From positions 1-37,439 of the IMG/VR virus record IMGVR_UViG_3300032304_000278: a DNA stretch of 37,439 bases. The stretch is one strand, 5' to 3'. The translations under genes and the position numbers were made by a program. Below the pieces are notes generated by a model. That model was not told the DNA's origin. It saw only the letters and a list, made by a program, of their open reading frames with translations, and did no database searches. Shown in pieces: positions 2,277 through 25,743 of this stretch; the stretch's first letter is position 1; every line of letters begins with the position of its first letter. Source of the DNA: a virus.

Positions 2277-3331
2277 ACGACCTCCAGTCGGTGCGTCTTC
2301 AGCATCCCTACAGCGAAGCAGAACGGCTCAAGGATTCCGCGATAAACAGAACCAAGCAAATCAAAACGGCCACGCTTGCGCTTCCAAATATCAGCAGTAC
2401 GATGCCGTGCAATATGTTCTGCAATCTTGCGTGTGATTTTCTTTCCAAGAGTCAATTCTCCGTTGTATGCGTATTCAACAACAGGCAGGAAGATAGCGTG
2501 ATAACCAACTTGGAAGGCAGGATGCAGATTCTTGGAATGCTCAAGCCAAATCTTTTGACGGAACGAACCGAATCCATAAGCCTTGCACATTGCCGTACAG
2601 ACAATCTTGCCACCAGAGGTGCTTTGCGTAACAGAGCCTTGAGGCGCACCGTAGACGCTTGAAAGAAATGTTTGAAGTTTTGCATAAGGCTTATTCTGCT
2701 CAAACTCAAAGCGAGCCATTTCGTCTTCAAGTGCGCGTTGCTGATAGGACTCACCAAGTTGACCTGCCTTGAGCAGTTGGTTGATATCCATGTAGTCAGC
2801 AGCGGCCATTTGAGGCGCACGAGTAGCAGCGGCTTCTTGCAATGCACGTTCAGTAGCGTAGTTCTCGTAAGCCAACTGACCTGCTTTACCAGACAAAGCG
2901 TTAGCCAGAGCAGTAGCAGCACGGTCTTCTTGACGGGCCATTGCTTCGGAACCATAACGGCCAGCCTGAGAAGCACGAGACCCCAGTCCAGTCATTGCGT
3001 CATAGTATTGCTGTGTAGCGACTTGTGCAGCAGGGGCTAGTGCTGCTTGGAAGTACGGGTTCGTACCAAGCATCTGACCACCAATCACGCCTTGCTGCTG
3101 TTGTTGTGCCGCGCCAAGGAGAGGGCTACCCTGTAGAGCGCGATTCGTAGCAGATTGAATGGCACCAGTTGTCGCTTCCGAAGGACCAACAAAAGTTTGT
3201 CCGGGGAAGAACGAAGGAGTCTCAGATTGGTAGAGACGCTGCGCCTCATTCAACCCATACTTTACAAAAGGCCGAAGAAACGGGTCAATCTGTTGCCTAG
3301 TTGTACTACTTTGTCCGCCGCCGCCACCCAT
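2273..3331 (-). CDS. Internal virion protein with conserved Cys-containing C-terminal domain, 352 aa
   Basis: I chose the ATG at 3331 (MGGGGGQSSTTRQQIDPFLR), one base after the upstream stop and preceded by GAGGTG, rather than a GTG at 3343. Residues 1-230 are Gln/Ala-rich and helical, like podovirus proteins that sit between tail and core. The last 100 residues are a different, basic and aromatic domain beginning KIVCTAMCKAYGFGSFRQK, with GYHAIFLPVV and KITRKIAEHI; similar tails occur at the ends of other phage virion proteins. The composite looks like an ejection or tail-core protein fused to a small folded domain of unknown role. Confidence 0.75.
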   Translation of the reverse strand: MGGGGGQSSTTRQQIDPFLRPFVKYGLNEAQRLYQSETPSFFPGQTFVGPSEATTGAIQSATNRALQGSPLLGAAQQQQQGVIGGQMLGTNPYFQAALAPAAQVATQQYYDAMTGLGSRASQAGRYGSEAMARQEDRAATALANALSGKAGQLAYENYATERALQEAAATRAPQMAAADYMDINQLLKAGQLGESYQQRALEDEMARFEFEQNKPYAKLQTFLSSVYGAPQGSVTQSTSGGKIVCTAMCKAYGFGSFRQKIWLEHSKNLHPAFQVGYHAIFLPVVEYAYNGELTLGKKITRKIAEHIARHRTADIWKRKRGRFDLLGSVYRGILEPFCFAVGMLKTHRLEVV

Positions 3332-3332
3332 A

Positions 3333-3731
3333 TCACACCTCACATATCCAAGTGCGTTCAGAGAATCCTAGTTCCCTAGCACGTTTAGACCATCCCTTCC
3401 TGAATGATGAGAAGGTTACGGTCTGACAACCACCATTTCTGGCGATACCCTTTATATGCTCTAAACCTTCTTGAAGATGCTGAAGGTTGGGCTTTTCTAG
3501 ATATGCAACCCAGACATGGATGTTTGTTTGATTCGGTTGAATAACAAAAAATCCAATGGGTCGATTATATTCTAGTGCCACCCAAAGCATTGAACGATTT
3601 TCATAACAATCGCAGTACAAATCTTCTGGAATCCAAGATTCCGGAGTTTTCTCTAAAACCTTATCTAAGCCTTTACGAACCCAAGGCCACCACTGACGCA
3701 ATTCATCTTTTGGCAGGTACCTTACGTCCAT
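3333..3731 (-). CDS. GNAT-like acetyltransferase-fold protein, 132 aa (T7 gp13-like position)
   Basis: Starts MDVRYLPKDELRQWWPWVRK. The pattern fits a small GNAT fold: a mixed N-terminal region, a central strand pair around ALEYNRPIGFFVIQP, a strand IHVWVAYLEKP, a helix LQEGLEHIKGIARNGGCQ and a C-terminal half TFSSFRKGWSKRARELGF. The usual acetyl-CoA loop (Q/RxxGxG/A) is not obvious, so it may be inactive. In T7-like and related podoviruses a small GNAT-like protein precedes the ejection proteins, as here. Coupled to its neighbours (TAAATG upstream, TGATATG downstream). Confidence 0.65.
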   Translation of the reverse strand: MDVRYLPKDELRQWWPWVRKGLDKVLEKTPESWIPEDLYCDCYENRSMLWVALEYNRPIGFFVIQPNQTNIHVWVAYLEKPNLQHLQEGLEHIKGIARNGGCQTVTFSSFRKGWSKRARELGFSERTWICEV

Positions 3732-4517: not shown

Positions 4518-5935
4518 CGTGTACCTTGCTCTGCAAGTTCAACATCTACTCCGACAGCAGTAACCCAGTTCCCAGATGGGATGACCTTGATTCTGTGGTA
4601 CTTGCCAGCAGAACGCAAAGACACTCTGTTTTCAGAGTCTGCTGCAACGGCAGTATTGAAAGAAACGTCAGCATTCAAGAGTTTGCGACTAGCGACTGAT
4701 ACTGATGCACTACCACCGTCAATGATGGGCCTAGCAAGCGTTACAACGCTGTTCAGGCCATCCATCTGAATGTCTCCGGTCACAAGATTGCCTGTCAAAG
4801 TAGTGCCTTCAAGACTGACTACGTTGGAACCAAACGTGCCTGCAACAAAGAACTTGCCGCCAGCCCATTGACGAGCATCAAAACTCACTTCGATAGAGTC
4901 AACAGTGCCGTAGTTATCAAGTTGCTCAAGAGTAACGCCAGCGGTCAATGCACCGCCAATGCTTGTGATAGCGATGTTGCTGTAACTCCAACGCTGAAGT
5001 TCCCATTGGAACATCAGTTGGTAGTAACCATTGAATACGTTCTTAAAGTTCCAGATAACAAGTTTCCGTTCAGGGTCAACCTGAGAACTCATGTTGTCTA
5101 TTTCTTGAATGTCAACATTGTCAAAGAACCATCTGTCAACCTTTTCAGCACCGATTGGCGTGACGGTTTGACCATCGCACATATAGAAACCGTTGTCTCC
5201 CAAGAAGAACGAGACTTGCTTGTACTGTGCAATAGACCCGTTTGCAGCGCATCCAACGCCACGAGAGATATTGTCAAACTGGAAGAACAAAGGACTTCCG
5301 ACATAACTCATTCTGTGAATTGAGTTTTGCAGAAACACAAGACCAAACTCGCCACCAGTTAGACCGACGATATCACCACCATCGGGAATGTCCTGCGAGT
5401 CTGCTTGACTAGCGGCACCAGATGTCCAATCAGTTTCATCATTGATGTCACTCCACTGAACTCGATTCGGATTGTTCGACTGATACCCACTGACAACGAA
5501 GTCGCGCACAATGGTGACAAACCTCGCTACAGGAGCAGCAGCGGATAGGTCTGCCCATACAGTAGATGTTCCAATCGTCCACGCCTGCAACTTCTCTGCA
5601 TTGTTGGCGGAAATAAGCACGTTGCCAAATTGGACTACATCTGTAGGTGCGTTTGCGTATCCACCCGCTTTGGATACATCACTAAAATTTAGCGTTGCTG
5701 CATCGAACTTATAAATCTTCGACGCACTCGCCGCAAACAGTTGTGAAGTACCAGAAGCCTTCCCGCCAAACACGGTAAGCAAAGTCTCTGATGCTGCGTT
5801 ACCAAACGTAGCCTTATTGGGGAAAGATGCGTAGCCAGTACCTACTGGATATACGTTCATCGCATCTGTCATGTTTCCAGCAACACCCGGACGGTCAGGG
5901 GTCCATTCGCCAAAAGTTAGCCTTGTCGTAGCCAT
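4514..5935 (-). CDS. Tail hub / DNA stabilisation protein, P22 gp10-like, 473 aa
   Basis: Starts MATTRLTFGEWTPDRPGVAG. It has the general features of the P22 gp10 family: a short N-terminal arm describing parameters (DAMNVYPVGTGYASFPN), then a long beta-propeller-like region with repeated strand pairs (FGNVLISANNAEKLQAW, PNRVQWSDINDETDWTSG, GGDIVGLTGGEFGLVFLQN, GDNGFYMCDGQTVTPIGAEKVDRWFF, PERKLVIWNFKN) and a separate C-terminal beta domain. In P22 gp10 joins the portal/gp4 ring to the tailspike region and closes the DNA exit. The C-terminal about 120 residues could carry a receptor or fibre contact. Family assignment is by motif memory. Confidence 0.8.
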   Translation of the reverse strand: MATTRLTFGEWTPDRPGVAGNMTDAMNVYPVGTGYASFPNKATFGNAASETLLTVFGGKASGTSQLFAASASKIYKFDAATLNFSDVSKAGGYANAPTDVVQFGNVLISANNAEKLQAWTIGTSTVWADLSAAAPVARFVTIVRDFVVSGYQSNNPNRVQWSDINDETDWTSGAASQADSQDIPDGGDIVGLTGGEFGLVFLQNSIHRMSYVGSPLFFQFDNISRGVGCAANGSIAQYKQVSFFLGDNGFYMCDGQTVTPIGAEKVDRWFFDNVDIQEIDNMSSQVDPERKLVIWNFKNVFNGYYQLMFQWELQRWSYSNIAITSIGGALTAGVTLEQLDNYGTVDSIEVSFDARQWAGGKFFVAGTFGSNVVSLEGTTLTGNLVTGDIQMDGLNSVVTLARPIIDGGSASVSVASRKLLNADVSFNTAVAADSENRVSLRSAGKYHRIKVIPSGNWVTAVGVDVELAEQGTR

Positions 5936-8900
5936 GTATTTTCACCTGATTGAACTTCTGTCCAGACGTTAGTGCCGATATTTACATCATCCCAAGTGTT
6001 CTGTTCTTCTTGAACGGTAGACCACTCATCACCCATTATTCTTCCATTTGGAAGAAGTGTTGCAAATCCAGAAATTGCAGATTCTGCTGAGAATCTAACA
6101 TTCGCAAAAGGAACGACTGTAGCAACAGATTGAATTACAACATCACCAGATGCTGTGTATTGCGCTTGTGCGGTGGCAGTTGCCACACCATTGATGTTTG
6201 CAAAACCAATTCTTTCAACAAGACCGGCAGAGGAAACAGTCGAATTACCGAATATTGATGATTGTGCAGAAAATACTTTGCTTCCAAGTGCAGAAACAAT
6301 GGCATTTGCAGATATTGCAGATTCACCTTTGTAAGTAATTACACCGTTTGCCGAAACTGTTGCATTTGCAGATATTGATGCCGCCCCTAAAACTATACCG
6401 ACTAAAACTCCATTTGCTGTTACTACTGCAAAAGACGAAATTAAAGATGACCCATTGAAGGTCAAAAATCCAGATGCAGATAAAACTGCATTAGCAGATA
6501 CTGAAGATGCTGCGGAGTAATTTACTATCCCAGCAGACGATACAGTTGCAGTTGTAGAAATCGCGGATGCGCCCTCAATAATGCCACTACCAGAAGGCGT
6601 ATAGACAATGATGATTACGCCTTGGGAACCAGAAGTGCCAGCACGAGTTGTTCCCGCAGTGCTTACACCAGCACCACCACCGCCACCGCCATATAGTCCA
6701 GCGCCAATGTTTGAGAAGTCAGCATCGTCTTCGCCACCACCACCACCACCAGAACCAATGCCAAAAATATCAATACCATTGCCGCCTGCACTTGCTGCGC
6801 TTACAGAACCACCACCACCACCACCCACTACGCCACTCGTATTTGAGGCGCCACCACCAACACCGGCTGAATTGTTGCCGCCAGTACCACCAGTTGCCGA
6901 GGAAGCGTTGCCACCAGAAGTGCCACCACCGTTGCCACCACCACCACCACCGGCAATGTTCGCAGCAGTAGTAGAACCAAATCCATTTCCACCATTACCA
7001 CCGACACCATTCGGGCCAGCAGCACCACCTCCACCACCACCTGCATTACCAGTTGACGCGATAGTGGACGTTGAGCCTGCACCACCGTTACCACCGTTGT
7101 AAGTGGTTCCAGTACCTCCCGAACCACCGGTGGATGTTGGAGTGGTTGTAGCCGACCCACCACCGCCGCCACCAGCGGTTGCTGCGCCTGAATTCCATGA
7201 AGTCGTACCACCAGCAGTACCATCTGCACCAACAGCACCATTTGCACCAGCAGTACCCGCTTGATATGTGATTGAACCACTTATAGTTTGGTTTGTTAAG
7301 CGAGTAAATCCGCCACCGCCACCGCCACCGCCACCAGCGCGATTGTTACCAGAAGAACGCCCACCCGCACCACCACCTCCACCACCAATCAGATTTATTG
7401 AATTGGATGAGTTGTTCCAATCCGCTGGAACGGTCCACGAGGTAGAGGATGTTGAGGTAAGAACAACAATGGCATTATCAGCACGTTGCGTAGTGAACAG
7501 TGCATAGCCGCTATTAGGTGCTGTCGTATTTATGACAGAGTTAGCACCGATATACCAAGTATCCGAAATTGGGCTACCAATAGCGTCACGGACGTTCAAA
7601 TAATCAATGCCCGTAAGGAATCCGCCGCCAGCCTTTGCGAGCGTGTATGGAGTGCCAGCAGTAGCACTATTAAGTGTTACTACGTTTCCAGCCGTTCCTT
7701 TAACAGACCAAGTGGTAACTGTTGTGGTAGTGCCCGCAGTAAATGTGATTGTGTGTGCAACAGTCTTGGTGCTGTCGATTTCACTGAATGTATTGCTACC
7801 GGTAATAGTCAGCGTTGACGTACCAGTAGCATCGCCAATAGTTAGTTTGTTATAAGTGAGGCCACCACCAGCAAATGTTCTTGCAGATGTTGTTGTGTTG
7901 CTAATAACGATATTTGCTGTGTCTTTGTTGAACGTAAGATTTGTGGTAGTTGCAAAATTCCAAACAGTGCCAGTGCCACTCAATGTCCAAATACCAGAAC
8001 CCATTGTGAGCGTTCTGGTATTACTGTTGCTAGAAGCAAATAAACCAGTTGTAATATTATTATTACTTGCGTTAAACGTACCTCTAGTAAGCGTTAGTGT
8101 TCTTGCTGAATCAAGAACAAGCGCATCGCCAAGTTGGACTGTGGACAACGCATCAATTGTTATTGGGCAACTAAAAGTTTTTCCACTTGATGTTATGGTT
8201 GCTGTACTTCTATTTGAGAACGTGAGTGTGTTTGTTCCAGATAAAGTCACACCAGAACCAATAGTCCAACTACCGTAAGTAGTTGCGGTGGCACCAAAAC
8301 TAAATGTCATTGCGCTAGTGCGCGCAGACATATCAACAGACGGAATGTTGAAGTTTTGAAATGTTACTGTTCCGGCAGCACCATCGTTTGTAAAGGTTGC
8401 CGTGTCTTGTGCTAGCGGAAAGTTGTCAATATTCGGCGTTCCGTTACTTGACGTTGCCCATGCCGTAGCGGACCAATTTTGTGAACCCGCGAGGTTCCAG
8501 TAAACAGTCTTGGCCGCAGGGAACGTAATCCCAGAGTTTCCACCGCAATCACCAGCGCGAGTCGGAGAAGACCCAGCAGCAGTGCCTGCAATCGTGATGT
8601 CGCGGAAGTCGCAGTCCGTGGCAGATAGACTGTTAACTGTTAGTGTGCGAGAGGTTCCAAGTGTGTCAGACCGAACAAAAATACGACGAACAGCGGTTGC
8701 ACCGGCTACCGTAAGAGTTCCATTGATTGTTTGATTTCCGGCAAAAGTAACTTGCCTAATACCGGATGTTGGCGCAGTAATATTAAGATTGTTAAATACG
8801 TTTGATGAAGATATGGCTACAGTATTGCCGCTGGTGCCAGTAAAAGAAACATCATTGTATGTATTAGCACCCGATATATTTGCGGTTGATGATGTATTTG

Positions 8901-24219: not shown

Positions 24220-24344
24220 TTCTTCTTCTCCATGCCCTTCCAAGTCTTCTTGGCAGTCTTCACGCCCTTCTTGGCAGCGGCTTTCTTAGCGGCTTCCATG
24301 CCAGCAGCAGTATATGGATATTTCTTGTTTCCGACCATCGGCAT
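24216..24344 (-). CDS. Tiny Lys/Ala-rich protein, 42 aa
   Basis: Starts MPMVGNKKYPYTAAGMEAAK. The sequence 'KKYPYTxxGxxxAKKAA' recurs in phage small proteins, and the remainder is histone H1-like (AAAKKGVKTAKKTWKG). It is the first gene of the leftward late block. Its GGAG ribosome site directly follows the T-tract of a strong terminator, so its expression should depend on antitermination. Confidence 0.8.
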   Translation of the reverse strand: MPMVGNKKYPYTAAGMEAAKKAAAKKGVKTAKKTWKGMEKKK

Positions 24345-24354
24345 GATTGACTCC

Positions 24355-24378
24355 AAAAAAATACCCGCCGAAGCGGGT
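24355..24378 (-). terminator. Intrinsic terminator abutting the first late ribosome site
   Basis: On the minus strand ACCCGC-TTCG-GCGGGT is followed by ATTTTTTT and then immediately GGAG, which serves the ATG at 24344. A terminator in this place makes sense only if it is conditional. Confidence 0.9.
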
Positions 24379-24409
24379 TAAGGCACTACACGGAGAGCGA
24401 GCGAACCAC

Positions 24410-24431
24410 AACTATTTGTCTGTCAATAGTT
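24410..24431. promoter_or_regulatory. AT-rich inverted repeat (operator-like)
   Basis: AACTATT and AATAGTT arms separated by eight bases, just upstream of the late terminator. The minus strand shows TTGACA here but no matching -10. Confidence 0.45.
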
Positions 24432-24450
24432 ATAGTTCTTGTGAACAATT

Positions 24451-24481
24451 TATCACCTGATACAAAGTTAATCAAGTGATA
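24451..24481. promoter_or_regulatory. 11-bp inverted repeat in AT-rich stretch (operator or hairpin)
   Basis: Arms TATCACCTGAT and ATCAAGTGATA pair over 11 positions (one G-T) around a nine-base loop, adjacent to a run of alternating AT. Either a protein-binding site or a hairpin in the late leader RNA. Confidence 0.5.
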
Positions 24482-24499
24482 TATATATTTATATACTTC

Positions 24500-24692
24500 C
24501 CGATTTGGTGGACACACCTAGACCATCCTAGGTGTACCTTCAGAAGTTTCCCGACTCGGAGCCACTTCACCCGACAGCCTTTTCGTCCTAGCGGTGCTAT
24601 CTTCGACGCCGCTATCCGTATCTCAGGACTATCCCACAGTACGGTTATCCTCTAGCCCCTGTCGTTACCCGACGAACTAGACGGTCTGTGCC
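24500..24692 (-). ncRNA. Candidate structured leader RNA between two late terminators
   Basis: On the minus strand this gene-free stretch is a chain of stems: CACAG (24690) with CTGTG (24635) enclosing TCTAG/CTAGA and a GTCG/CGAC hairpin; GTCCT+AGCGG (24629-24609) pairing with CCGCT+AGGAC (24594-24585) with a bulge; GAAGT/ACTTC (24568, 24543); and an 8-bp ACACCTAG/CTAGGTGT hairpin (24535-24514). No open reading frame is apparent on either strand. I infer an RNA element of the late leader that could control the downstream terminator. Pairing was done by eye. Confidence 0.5.
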
Positions 24693-24796
24693 AAAAGAAA
24701 AACCCCATTCAGATAGAGGCTTGGCCCTTGGCTTGGGCAATCCTTGACACCCGCTGATTGGCGTCTTAGACCACACAAGCCCCTATCTCAATGAGG
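24693..24796 (-). terminator. tR'-like terminator with branched stem
   Basis: Outer arms of 21 bases pair at 20 positions and are followed by T5-C-T4 on the minus strand. The apical part contains GACGCC/GGTGTC and GCCC/GGGC hairpins, making a three-way junction, which is more elaborate than an ordinary terminator. Confidence 0.7.
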
Positions 24797-24834
24797 TTCT
24801 TGCTATCAGCGAATGTCTGACTGCCACATCAGAC
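24693..24834 (-). ncRNA. Short late-leader RNA ending in a strong terminator (lambda 6S-like)
   Basis: From a predicted start near 24834 the RNA forms a 7-bp hairpin (TGTCTGA/TCAGACA), then a 21-position stem (24796-24776 with 24723-24703, one mismatch, two G-U) enclosing two smaller hairpins, and ends in TTTTTCTTTT. About 140 nt in all. The arrangement matches the short RNA made from lambda pR' that ends at tR' when Q is absent. Confidence 0.6.
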
Positions 24835-24840
24835 ACCACC

Positions 24841-24869
24841 AAGATAGTCCATCTTTGTCCACTTGTCAA
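24841..24869 (-). promoter_or_regulatory. Late promoter candidate (pR'-like)
   Basis: Minus strand: perfect TTGACA (24869-24864), 17-base spacer, TATCTT (24846-24841). The best sigma70-like promoter seen in the window. It lies about 340 bases downstream of the Q-like gene and reads into the late leader. Confidence 0.75.
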
Positions 24870-24871
24870 CT

Positions 24872-24887
24872 ATAAGCAAATGCTTAT
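24872..24887. promoter_or_regulatory. 16-bp palindrome between divergent promoters
   Basis: ATAAGCA-AA-TGCTTAT is a perfect inverted repeat placed directly upstream of the -35 of the leftward promoter and about 20 bases upstream of the -35 of the rightward promoter, a natural place for an operator or for Q-type loading. Confidence 0.6.
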
Positions 24888-24908
24888 GGGTAGCATCAGA
24901 AGAACAAA

Positions 24909-24936
24909 TTGCACAGATGCGAAAAGTCAGGATAAT
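24909..24936 (+). promoter_or_regulatory. Rightward promoter for the BoxA-bearing leader
   Basis: TTGCAC, 16-base spacer, GATAAT. Predicted start near 24943, which places a BoxA within the first 20 nt of the RNA. Confidence 0.65.
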
Positions 24937-24950
24937 AGACCTTGCAGCAC

Positions 24951-24962
24951 TGCTCTTTAACA
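24951..24962 (+). promoter_or_regulatory. BoxA antitermination element (rrn type)
   Basis: TGCTCTTTAACA is identical to the BoxA of proteobacterial rRNA operons, where NusB-NusE load onto the RNA. It lies in the leader of the 66-aa gene, between a promoter and the ribosome site. Confidence 0.7.
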
Positions 24963-24988
24963 CAATCAGATGAACCAAGGAGAGTTAG

Positions 24989-25189
24989 ATGACGCAAGAC
25001 GAAAAAGAGCAAGCCATCGTTGACCTGTTGGCTTCACGCACGCTGGAAAGAATGCGGAAGTATGACCAAGATGCTGTACTGGATGCCGCTACGCGTCGCA
25101 GTCTTGGGGCAAGTGCGGCGGTTATGATTGCGGCGCAAGAACACAATCAAGACTTTTTAAATAAACTGGCATTAATTCTAAAATCTTGA
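24989..25189 (+). CDS. Small helical protein with BoxA leader, 66 aa
   Basis: Starts MTQDEKEQAIVDLLASRTLE after a well-spaced AAGGAG. Predicted mostly helical (RMRKYDQDAVLDAATRRSLG, AAVMIAAQEHNQDFLNKLAL), roughly neutral, no membrane segment. It is alone on the plus strand between the late promoter and the convergent Q-like gene and has its own terminator. It is not Arg-rich at the start, so it does not look like lambda N. Possibly a regulator of the adjoining late switch; this is inference. Confidence 0.75.
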   Translation: MTQDEKEQAIVDLLASRTLERMRKYDQDAVLDAATRRSLGASAAVMIAAQEHNQDFLNKLALILKS

Positions 25190-25193
25190 CACA

Positions 25194-25218
25194 AAGGGGC
25201 TTCGGCCCCTTATTTTTT
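25194..25218 (+). terminator. Intrinsic terminator after the 66-aa gene
   Basis: AAGGGGC-TTCG-GCCCCTT followed by ATTTTTT. It overlaps the stop codon of the convergent Q-like gene. The stem core equals that of the hairpins at 18746 and 18967, but here a T-tract follows. Confidence 0.9.
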
Positions 25219-25743
25219 GACCTTCTTTGCAAGTCTTTCTGCGTAGTCCATGAAAGATTCGTTCAGGACTTCTAGACAATCGGCAAACTCCTCGCGGAAT
25301 CGGCTATTATCTAGTTCATCCAGACCAACATCATGTGAGTTTGGAGGGGCTTCTTTGCCCGAACCCTTGCACCTAGTGCAACACTTCTCGCTTAGAACCT
25401 GCTCGTTCGATTCTAACTTTTCGAACTTGACACCTTTGCAGGCACGGCAAACATCCGTTAGCCAGTAGCACAGAGCAGACTCCGCAATCTGGTGCAGGAC
25501 TCGCTTAGATAGGTTGGAACGCTCTTGACGCTTCTTGCCTACGAACTTCGTCATGAGTTCGCGGAGCAGTTCTTTGGTCTTTGAATGGTCCTGAGCATAC
25601 TTAGACCAGAAGGCCAGTGCGCCAAGACCCTTCTTACGGGCTACAAGCCCGCTAGACGCGATTAAATCAGCGTCGAAGTGTAGGTCATCACACTTGAGAT
25701 TAGAACTCGTTGTGGCGCGTGTCATGCGTTCAATCACTCCCAT
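25210..25743 (-). CDS. Q-like late antiterminator, 177 aa
   Basis: Starts MGVIERMTRATTSSNLKCDD. A helical N-terminal half rich in Lys/Arg (TKFVGKKRQERSNLSKRVLH) is followed by a zinc-ribbon-like segment with CRACKG (near residue 100) and CTRCKGSG (about 20 residues later), as in antitermination protein Q families of lambdoid phages. It is the last gene of the leftward early operon, and the late promoter-leader lies directly downstream, exactly the lambda arrangement. In lambda Q loads onto RNA polymerase paused near pR' and lets it pass tR'. The family is assigned from zinc motif and position. Confidence 0.7.
   Translation of the reverse strand: MGVIERMTRATTSSNLKCDDLHFDADLIASSGLVARKKGLGALAFWSKYAQDHSKTKELLRELMTKFVGKKRQERSNLSKRVLHQIAESALCYWLTDVCRACKGVKFEKLESNEQVLSEKCCTRCKGSGKEAPPNSHDVGLDELDNSRFREEFADCLEVLNESFMDYAERLAKKVKK

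Follow-up and report, generated by a model that had tools for sequence, protein, structure and literature searches.

RESULTS

The locus studied here lies in a viral record of IMG/VR (IMGVR_UViG_3300032304_000278), of which positions 1 to 37,439 are referred to below as the window. It raises the question of whether a gene for a Q-like protein, the promoter downstream of it, and the short terminated RNA that follows make up a late switch of the lambda type. The arrangement resembles lambda pR'-tR' and 6S RNA in that a promoter after Q is followed by a short RNA, a terminator, and late genes, and a sequence-only reading of the window had interpreted it in this way. The features discussed below are listed in Table 1.

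TABLE 1 Features of the locus, in descending order of position
Feature	Position	Strand	Remarks
Winged-helix regulator gene	26876-26592	-	94 aa; HTH_20, E value 8e-9
Q-like antiterminator gene (putative)	25743-25210	-	177 aa; zinc-finger-like CxxC...CxxCxGxG (CRAC...CCTRCKGSG)
P1	24869-24841	-	TTGACA-17-TATCTT; sigma70-type; drives RNA1
RNA1	24834-24691	-	Conserved structured RNA of ~144 nt; ends in intrinsic terminator; 25 distinct homologues
RNA1 hairpin H1	24834-24815	-	GTCTGAT-GTGGCA-GTCAGAC; consensus fold; double changes in 2 pairs
S1	24811-24805	-	Hypervariable strand CGCTGAT, between H1 and stem A
Terminator stem A, 5' arm	24798-24776	-	RNA1 consensus fold
S1'	24758-24752	-	ATCAGCG; loop of inner hairpin B, above the terminator stem
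Terminator stem A, 3' arm	24723-24703	-	Followed by T5CT4 at 24702-24693
Betaproteobacteria-1 RNA, RF02932 (known family)	24683-24569	-	Rfam, 89.5 bits versus gathering threshold of 49.4
P2	24475-24447	-	TTGATT-17-TAAATT; aligned in 10 distinct loci, L004 included
Conserved P2 transcript start	24438-24403	-	GAACTATAACTAT...ATAGTTGTGGTTC (hairpin arms); near-invariant in 10 loci
Second intrinsic terminator	24378-24355	-	ACCCGCTTCGGCGGGT-A-T7; just before the first late gene

A putative Q-like antiterminator

The last leftward early gene had been read as Q-like from the CxxC...CxxCxGxG pattern of its product, and a profile search against antitermination Q families, proposed at the same time, agreed with this reading: the 177-aa protein matched PHROG_127 (“anti-termination protein Q-like”) with an E value of 7.8e-8, and the same family was matched by 7/7 long Q-like relatives. 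The Q-like profile was made from 11 sequences, namely, 7 long ones and 4 short ones (111 to 112 aa) that were aligned to them. When the whole Protein Data Bank was searched by profile, the top match was antitermination protein Q (7ubm), but with an E value of only 0.016, and 4mo1 ranked fourth in the same search (E value of 1.5). Neither Pfam nor NCBIfam gave a Q match for the 177-aa protein, tblastn found no match to it in 50,697 phage records, and the AlphaFold2 model was poor (pLDDT of 61) and gave no informative match in Foldseek. The match to Q is weak but consistent; we consider the protein likely, although not proven, to be Q-like, and its antitermination activity is putative.

At some loci (L016 to L023, L030, L101, and L102), the Q-like protein has only 111 to 112 aa and lacks the zinc-finger part, with the gene order unchanged. 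Between the Q-like gene and P1 lies a convergent 66-aa open reading frame (ORF) (24989 to 25189, plus strand), and a stem-loop terminator with T6 on the strand of that ORF (25194 to 25211) sits between it and the end of the Q-like gene.

P1 and a conserved structured RNA

Eight promoter-like sites were found between 19.5 and 37.4 kb, and P1, which scored 10/12, was joint best among them. The 486-nt leader downstream of P1 folds far better than shuffled sequences (z score of -7.4; 0/100 shuffles were as good). Both the promoter and the branched stem with T5CT4 that had been placed about 140 nt past it on the same strand were confirmed, and the stem ends in TTTTTCTTTT at about position 24693.

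A 17-nt seed from the branched stem retrieved 34 IMG/VR contigs, two of them by chance; L034, L041, and L103 were set aside as chance pattern matches. The RNA1 alignment comprises 25 distinct homologues of 132 to 157 nt, 23 of which were used to derive a consensus fold with 31 pairs in hairpin H1, terminator stem A, inner hairpin B, and hairpin C. Double changes were present in 9/31 pairs; since the search seed sits inside stem A, the conservation of part of that stem is not independent evidence. In 25/25 homologues, the -10 element of the best sigma70-type promoter ends 6 to 8 nt before RNA1, and the promoter scores upstream of RNA1 averaged 8.6/12 compared to 6.8/12 in shuffled sequences. 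This fixed distance, together with scores above those of shuffles, indicates that the promoter and RNA1 travel as a unit, and the recurrence of T5CT4 and P1 at fixed spacing in 25 distinct sequences argues that the arrangement did not arise by chance.

No Rfam family, including IsrK, C4-type RNAs, GOLLD, and ROOL, scored above its cutoff over RNA1. A nucleotide search of 50,697 phage records with the leader returned chance matches only, and the RNA1 pattern was not found in 84,980 bacterial and archaeal genomes. The H1 loop (TGGC) and the hairpin C loop (GCCA) are both nearly invariant and are complementary to one another, and they may also kiss; because the loops are invariant, this pairing is not amenable to a covariation test.

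RNA1 occurs away from Q

Using the Q-family profile to search upstream of RNA1, we found Q in one phage lineage only (the window, L001 to L007, L014, L016 to L023, L030, L101, and L102); L008, which is one base off the search pattern, also has both Q and RNA1. Q was not found at L013, L024, L026, L027, L028/L029/L038, L032, or L049, for which 1.6 to 10.7 kb of upstream sequence was seen. The RNA1 neighbors that were checked at loci without Q are DNA methylase, NinB, RusA, HNH, metallophosphoesterase, and primase/helicase genes. At L004, Q is present at 88% identity and P2 is kept, and RNA1 is absent. The presence of RNA1 and its promoter in other phages away from Q and close to early genes, and their absence from L004, indicate that they form a separate RNA cassette. 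The idea that RNA1 is simply the leader of Q was rejected on the grounds that RNA1 occurs away from Q.

A hypervariable strand pair that matches itself

S1 and S1' form a Watson-Crick helix with a mean length of 7.6 bp within a phage, versus 3.8 bp when the two strands are taken from different phages (22 distinct pairs), and 0/20000 permutations reached the observed sum. Differences between closely related sequences are concentrated in the regions that hold these strands. L016 and L017 have 7/41 differences in the S1 and hairpin B regions and 0/101 elsewhere; for L027 and L042, the S1/S1' regions contain 13/52 differences and the remainder contains 0/101. Two further comparisons gave 23/50 versus 1/96 (L020 and L102) and 25/51 versus 2/96 (L101 and L102).

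One explanation is that S1:S1' amounts to no more than a pseudoknot in cis or a folding intermediate, with sequence irrelevant, so that the strands undergo neutral compensatory drift. Any complementary S1/S1' pair does seem to be allowed, as this would require. However, many paired changes with none in ~100 other positions, as seen for L016/L017 and L027/L042, would be hard to obtain neutrally, and we regard drift as a rather unlikely explanation.

The same layout recurs beyond RNA1. In a second family, RNA1b (16 contigs), S1 is in a hairpin loop and S1' is in a hairpin inside the terminator, and 6/6 S1 forms make a perfect 10-bp match with their own S1'. The S1/S1' layout is shared by eight modules of differing sequence that precede RF02932 (two of them RNA1b), and across these modules, with S1 windows picked by eye, the pairing of each strand with its own partner beats every other of 40320 permutations. 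These sequence patterns suggest that RNA1 may be a self-recognizing RNA switch and not just the beginning of a late message of the lambda type.

A predicted folding switch

Folding was predicted with a thermodynamic model, which ignores pseudoknots and kinetics. In nascent RNA1, taken to as far as 12 nt past S1', the predicted probability of S1:S1' was 0.77 to 1.0 in 25/25 homologues, and shuffling of S1 gave a mean nascent pairing of 0.20. In full-length RNA1, the predicted probability was ≤0.11 and the terminator stem dominated. The same switch was predicted for 5/6 RNA1b sequences; the exception, L079, is truncated by the end of its contig, and its full fold retains S1:S1'. By this model, RNA1 has a terminator and an alternative pairing that forms before the terminator.

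Stem A is 20 to 26 bp long, and in 21/25 RNA1 sequences S1 lies 0 to 4 nt from the stem base, so S1 and S1' could hardly pair in cis once the stem is complete. On the same grounds, a constant S1:S1' intramolecular pseudoknot in finished RNA1 is disfavored. The linker between S1 and the stem is longer in the window (8 nt), L005, L006, and L008 and is about 9 nt in RNA1b; for these, cis pairing in the finished RNA is possible.

Another way to account for the pair is that copies of RNA1, as a stable phage RNA, kiss through S1:S1' and assemble into homo-oligomers, in the manner of phi29 pRNA or the GOLLD and ROOL cages; divergence would then keep assemblies separate when phages co-infect. The predicted finished fold leaves both S1 and S1' exposed, RNA1b shows 6-nt loop-loop complementarity, a cis contact would be hard to make across a stem of at least 20 bp, and kissing loops between molecules are known from phage RNAs (PMC12286853). 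However, oligomers would need neither the position of the terminator nor a nascent switch, and RNA1 has no Rfam match to GOLLD/ROOL-type families. We consider homo-oligomerization improbable.

RF02932 and alternative 3' modules

RF02932 immediately follows RNA1 in the window and, according to Rfam, at 11 further RNA1 loci. Conservation continues for ~70 nt past the end of the Rfam match (window positions 24568 to 24497, minus strand; GTGGCTCCGA...CTAGGTG.GTCCACCA) and is also seen at L013, L016, L024, L028, and L035, so that the actual length of this RNA is probably ~190 nt or more. At other loci (L005 to L008, L014, and L089 to L097; L026 and L031), two different conserved sequences, modules B and C, replace RF02932 after RNA1 or RNA1b; no Rfam family scored above its cutoff for these modules in L006, L026, or L031. 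RNA1b is followed by RF02932 or by the L005-type module. The variation of 3' modules behind both RNA1 and RNA1b indicates that 5' and 3' modules combine freely.

A nucleotide search with RF02932 gave chance matches only in the 50,697 phage records, and a pattern search of the 84,980 bacterial and archaeal genomes found it in Glaciimonas immobilis only. A covariance search of 394 genomes related to Glaciimonas immobilis revealed 16 with an RF02932 match, mostly without an S1-type module; among these matches, L118 seems by eye to have one. ORFs that look HNH-like by eye lie in or beside the RNA cassette at L001 (about 5933 to 6412), at L022 (after the RNA1 stem), and at L019 (about 2939 to 3436), as if homing endonucleases targeted the cassette.

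P2, the second terminator, and the candidate late switch

In most relatives, P2 reads TTGACT-17-TAATAT. Its initial transcribed region contains a -10-like element, AACTAT, twice, conserved in 10 loci; the lambda pause element is AACGAT. The second terminator had been placed just before the first late gene, and this was verified, with the ATG of that gene at 24342; a terminator directly precedes the late genes in 10/10 P2 loci of the long-Q lineage, L004 included. The P2 spacer (-35 to -10) is not conserved and shows no clear direct repeat (10 loci).

No -10-like element was recognized by eye in the initial transcribed region of P1 (GTCTGATGTGGC; GTCTGGGGTGGC in the L024 group). The P1 spacer contains TGGAC twice, 10 bp apart, in the window, CGGAC twice in L006, and GCAT three times in the short-Q (L016) group; no clear direct repeats were seen in the P1 spacer at most other RNA1 loci. 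For a Q switch, the initial transcribed region must contain a -10-like element, and a binding element must lie between -35 and -10 (PMC6606751). Judged by these sequence elements, P2 is likelier than P1, although not firmly so, to be the target of the Q-like protein and the late switch. P1 is a possible Q target as well, given that its spacer (-35 to -10) holds direct repeats in two sublineages. In the short-Q lineage, no terminator was seen after the P2-like promoter (5 loci) and P1 has repeats, which favors P1 as the promoter for Q there.

A switch at P1 would make P1 the equivalent of pR', RNA1 a leader like lambda 6S, and the RNA1 terminator the equivalent of tR'; with Q, polymerase would then pass both terminators and reach the late genes. 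The order of Q, promoter, terminator, and late genes fits this, and the repeats in the P1 spacer resemble the Q21 binding element (PMC6606751). However, RNA1 and its promoter occur without Q in at least 6 contexts, L004 has Q and P2 but no RNA1, the spacer repeats are missing from most other RNA1 loci, no -10-like element follows P1, and S1/S1' would be left unexplained. We find this assignment fairly unlikely. What stands of the original lambda-like proposal is the succession of a Q-like gene, promoter, short RNA, terminator, second terminator, and late genes; it loses ground in that the short RNA and P1 turn out to be a separable cassette and that the pause element is present after P2, not P1. 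The accompanying statement that no other late activator was visible is weakened by the winged-helix regulator gene (Table 1), whose product is a possible regulator of P2, the start of which carries an inverted repeat.

DISCUSSION

The locus is best explained, in our view, by two units: a self-specific RNA attenuator (P1-RNA1-RF02932) and a P2 late-switch unit, which is the likelier Q target. We hold this explanation with about as much doubt as belief, and the functional steps of the cassette and the late switch are what we infer from sequence comparison and folding models. Early on, S1:S1' would form in cis and delay the terminator, and polymerase would read into RF02932. As terminated copies of RNA1 accumulate, their trans pairing with S1 or S1' of nascent transcripts would bring termination back, and the attenuator would thus sense its own dose. 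Because the signal in this proposal is the S1/S1' sequence itself, phages sharing a cell would diverge in S1/S1' and thereby avoid cross-talk, in a manner akin to incompatible plasmids and hetero-immune phages. In the computed folds, the terminator beats S1:S1' once the 3' arm of its stem has been made; terminator stems have high stability, and a delay of the terminator by S1:S1' may not occur. The second unit would consist of P2 with a hairpin, a pause-like element, and a terminator beside the late genes and would be the target of the Q-like protein. A broader proposal, which we put forward only tentatively and consider somewhat doubtful, is that these RNAs represent a widespread phage RNA self/non-self system. 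At its core would be a terminator RNA close to the promoter, bearing a hypervariable self-complementary pair and occurring in at least two sequence families; such an RNA would control its own cassette through copy number and would exclude other phages, or ignore them, by strand identity.

Several known RNAs share parts of this design. RNA1 differs from lambda 6S in being separable from Q and in carrying a hypervariable self-complementary pair. Like RNA1, IsrK of Gifsy-1 has a promoter of its own immediately behind a Q-like gene (antQ). IsrK exists as a short terminated RNA and a read-through form, and the former acts in trans on the latter (PMC4825925). In the available part of that source, in contrast with what we propose for RNA1, no hypervariable strand pair is described and IsrK frees translation (PMC4825925). 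The Rfam isrK model scored 16.2 bits against the window, versus 50 required, and at a site other than RNA1.

In the C4 RNA of phages P1 and P7, the pairing sequence sets immunity. The CI RNA of P4, an immunity RNA, base-pairs with elements of its own leader and causes premature termination, as summarized in the same source as IsrK (PMC4825925). RNA1 is unlike both P4 CI and C4 in that it has both strands in one RNA with an intrinsic terminator, and it has no Rfam match.

Plasmid antisense RNAs, such as those of pT181 and the IncK RNAI, are copied from the opposite strand, whereas RNA1 has both partners on one strand. In pT181 attenuators, loop-loop pairing controls a terminator and the loop sequence sets specificity (PMC3753616); for IncK RNAI, a few loop changes make plasmids compatible (PMC10724649). 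GOLLD, ROOL, and phi29 pRNA are, like RNA1, phage noncoding RNAs with complementary loops, which are intermolecular in the known cases; RNA1 is shorter, is terminator ended, and is not homologous to them as judged by Rfam. A literature search for a self-pairing RNA of the RNA1 type found none, which is a weak negative.

The 120-nt Rfam model of RF02932 excludes RNA1. RNA1 extends this known family at its 5' end and gives the family a testable regulatory switch. Rarely does sequence by itself indicate selection for RNA identity among co-infecting phages, as S1/S1' does, and RNA incompatibility between phages thereby becomes testable. For this phage group, the late switch is to be sought at P2 as well as at P1.
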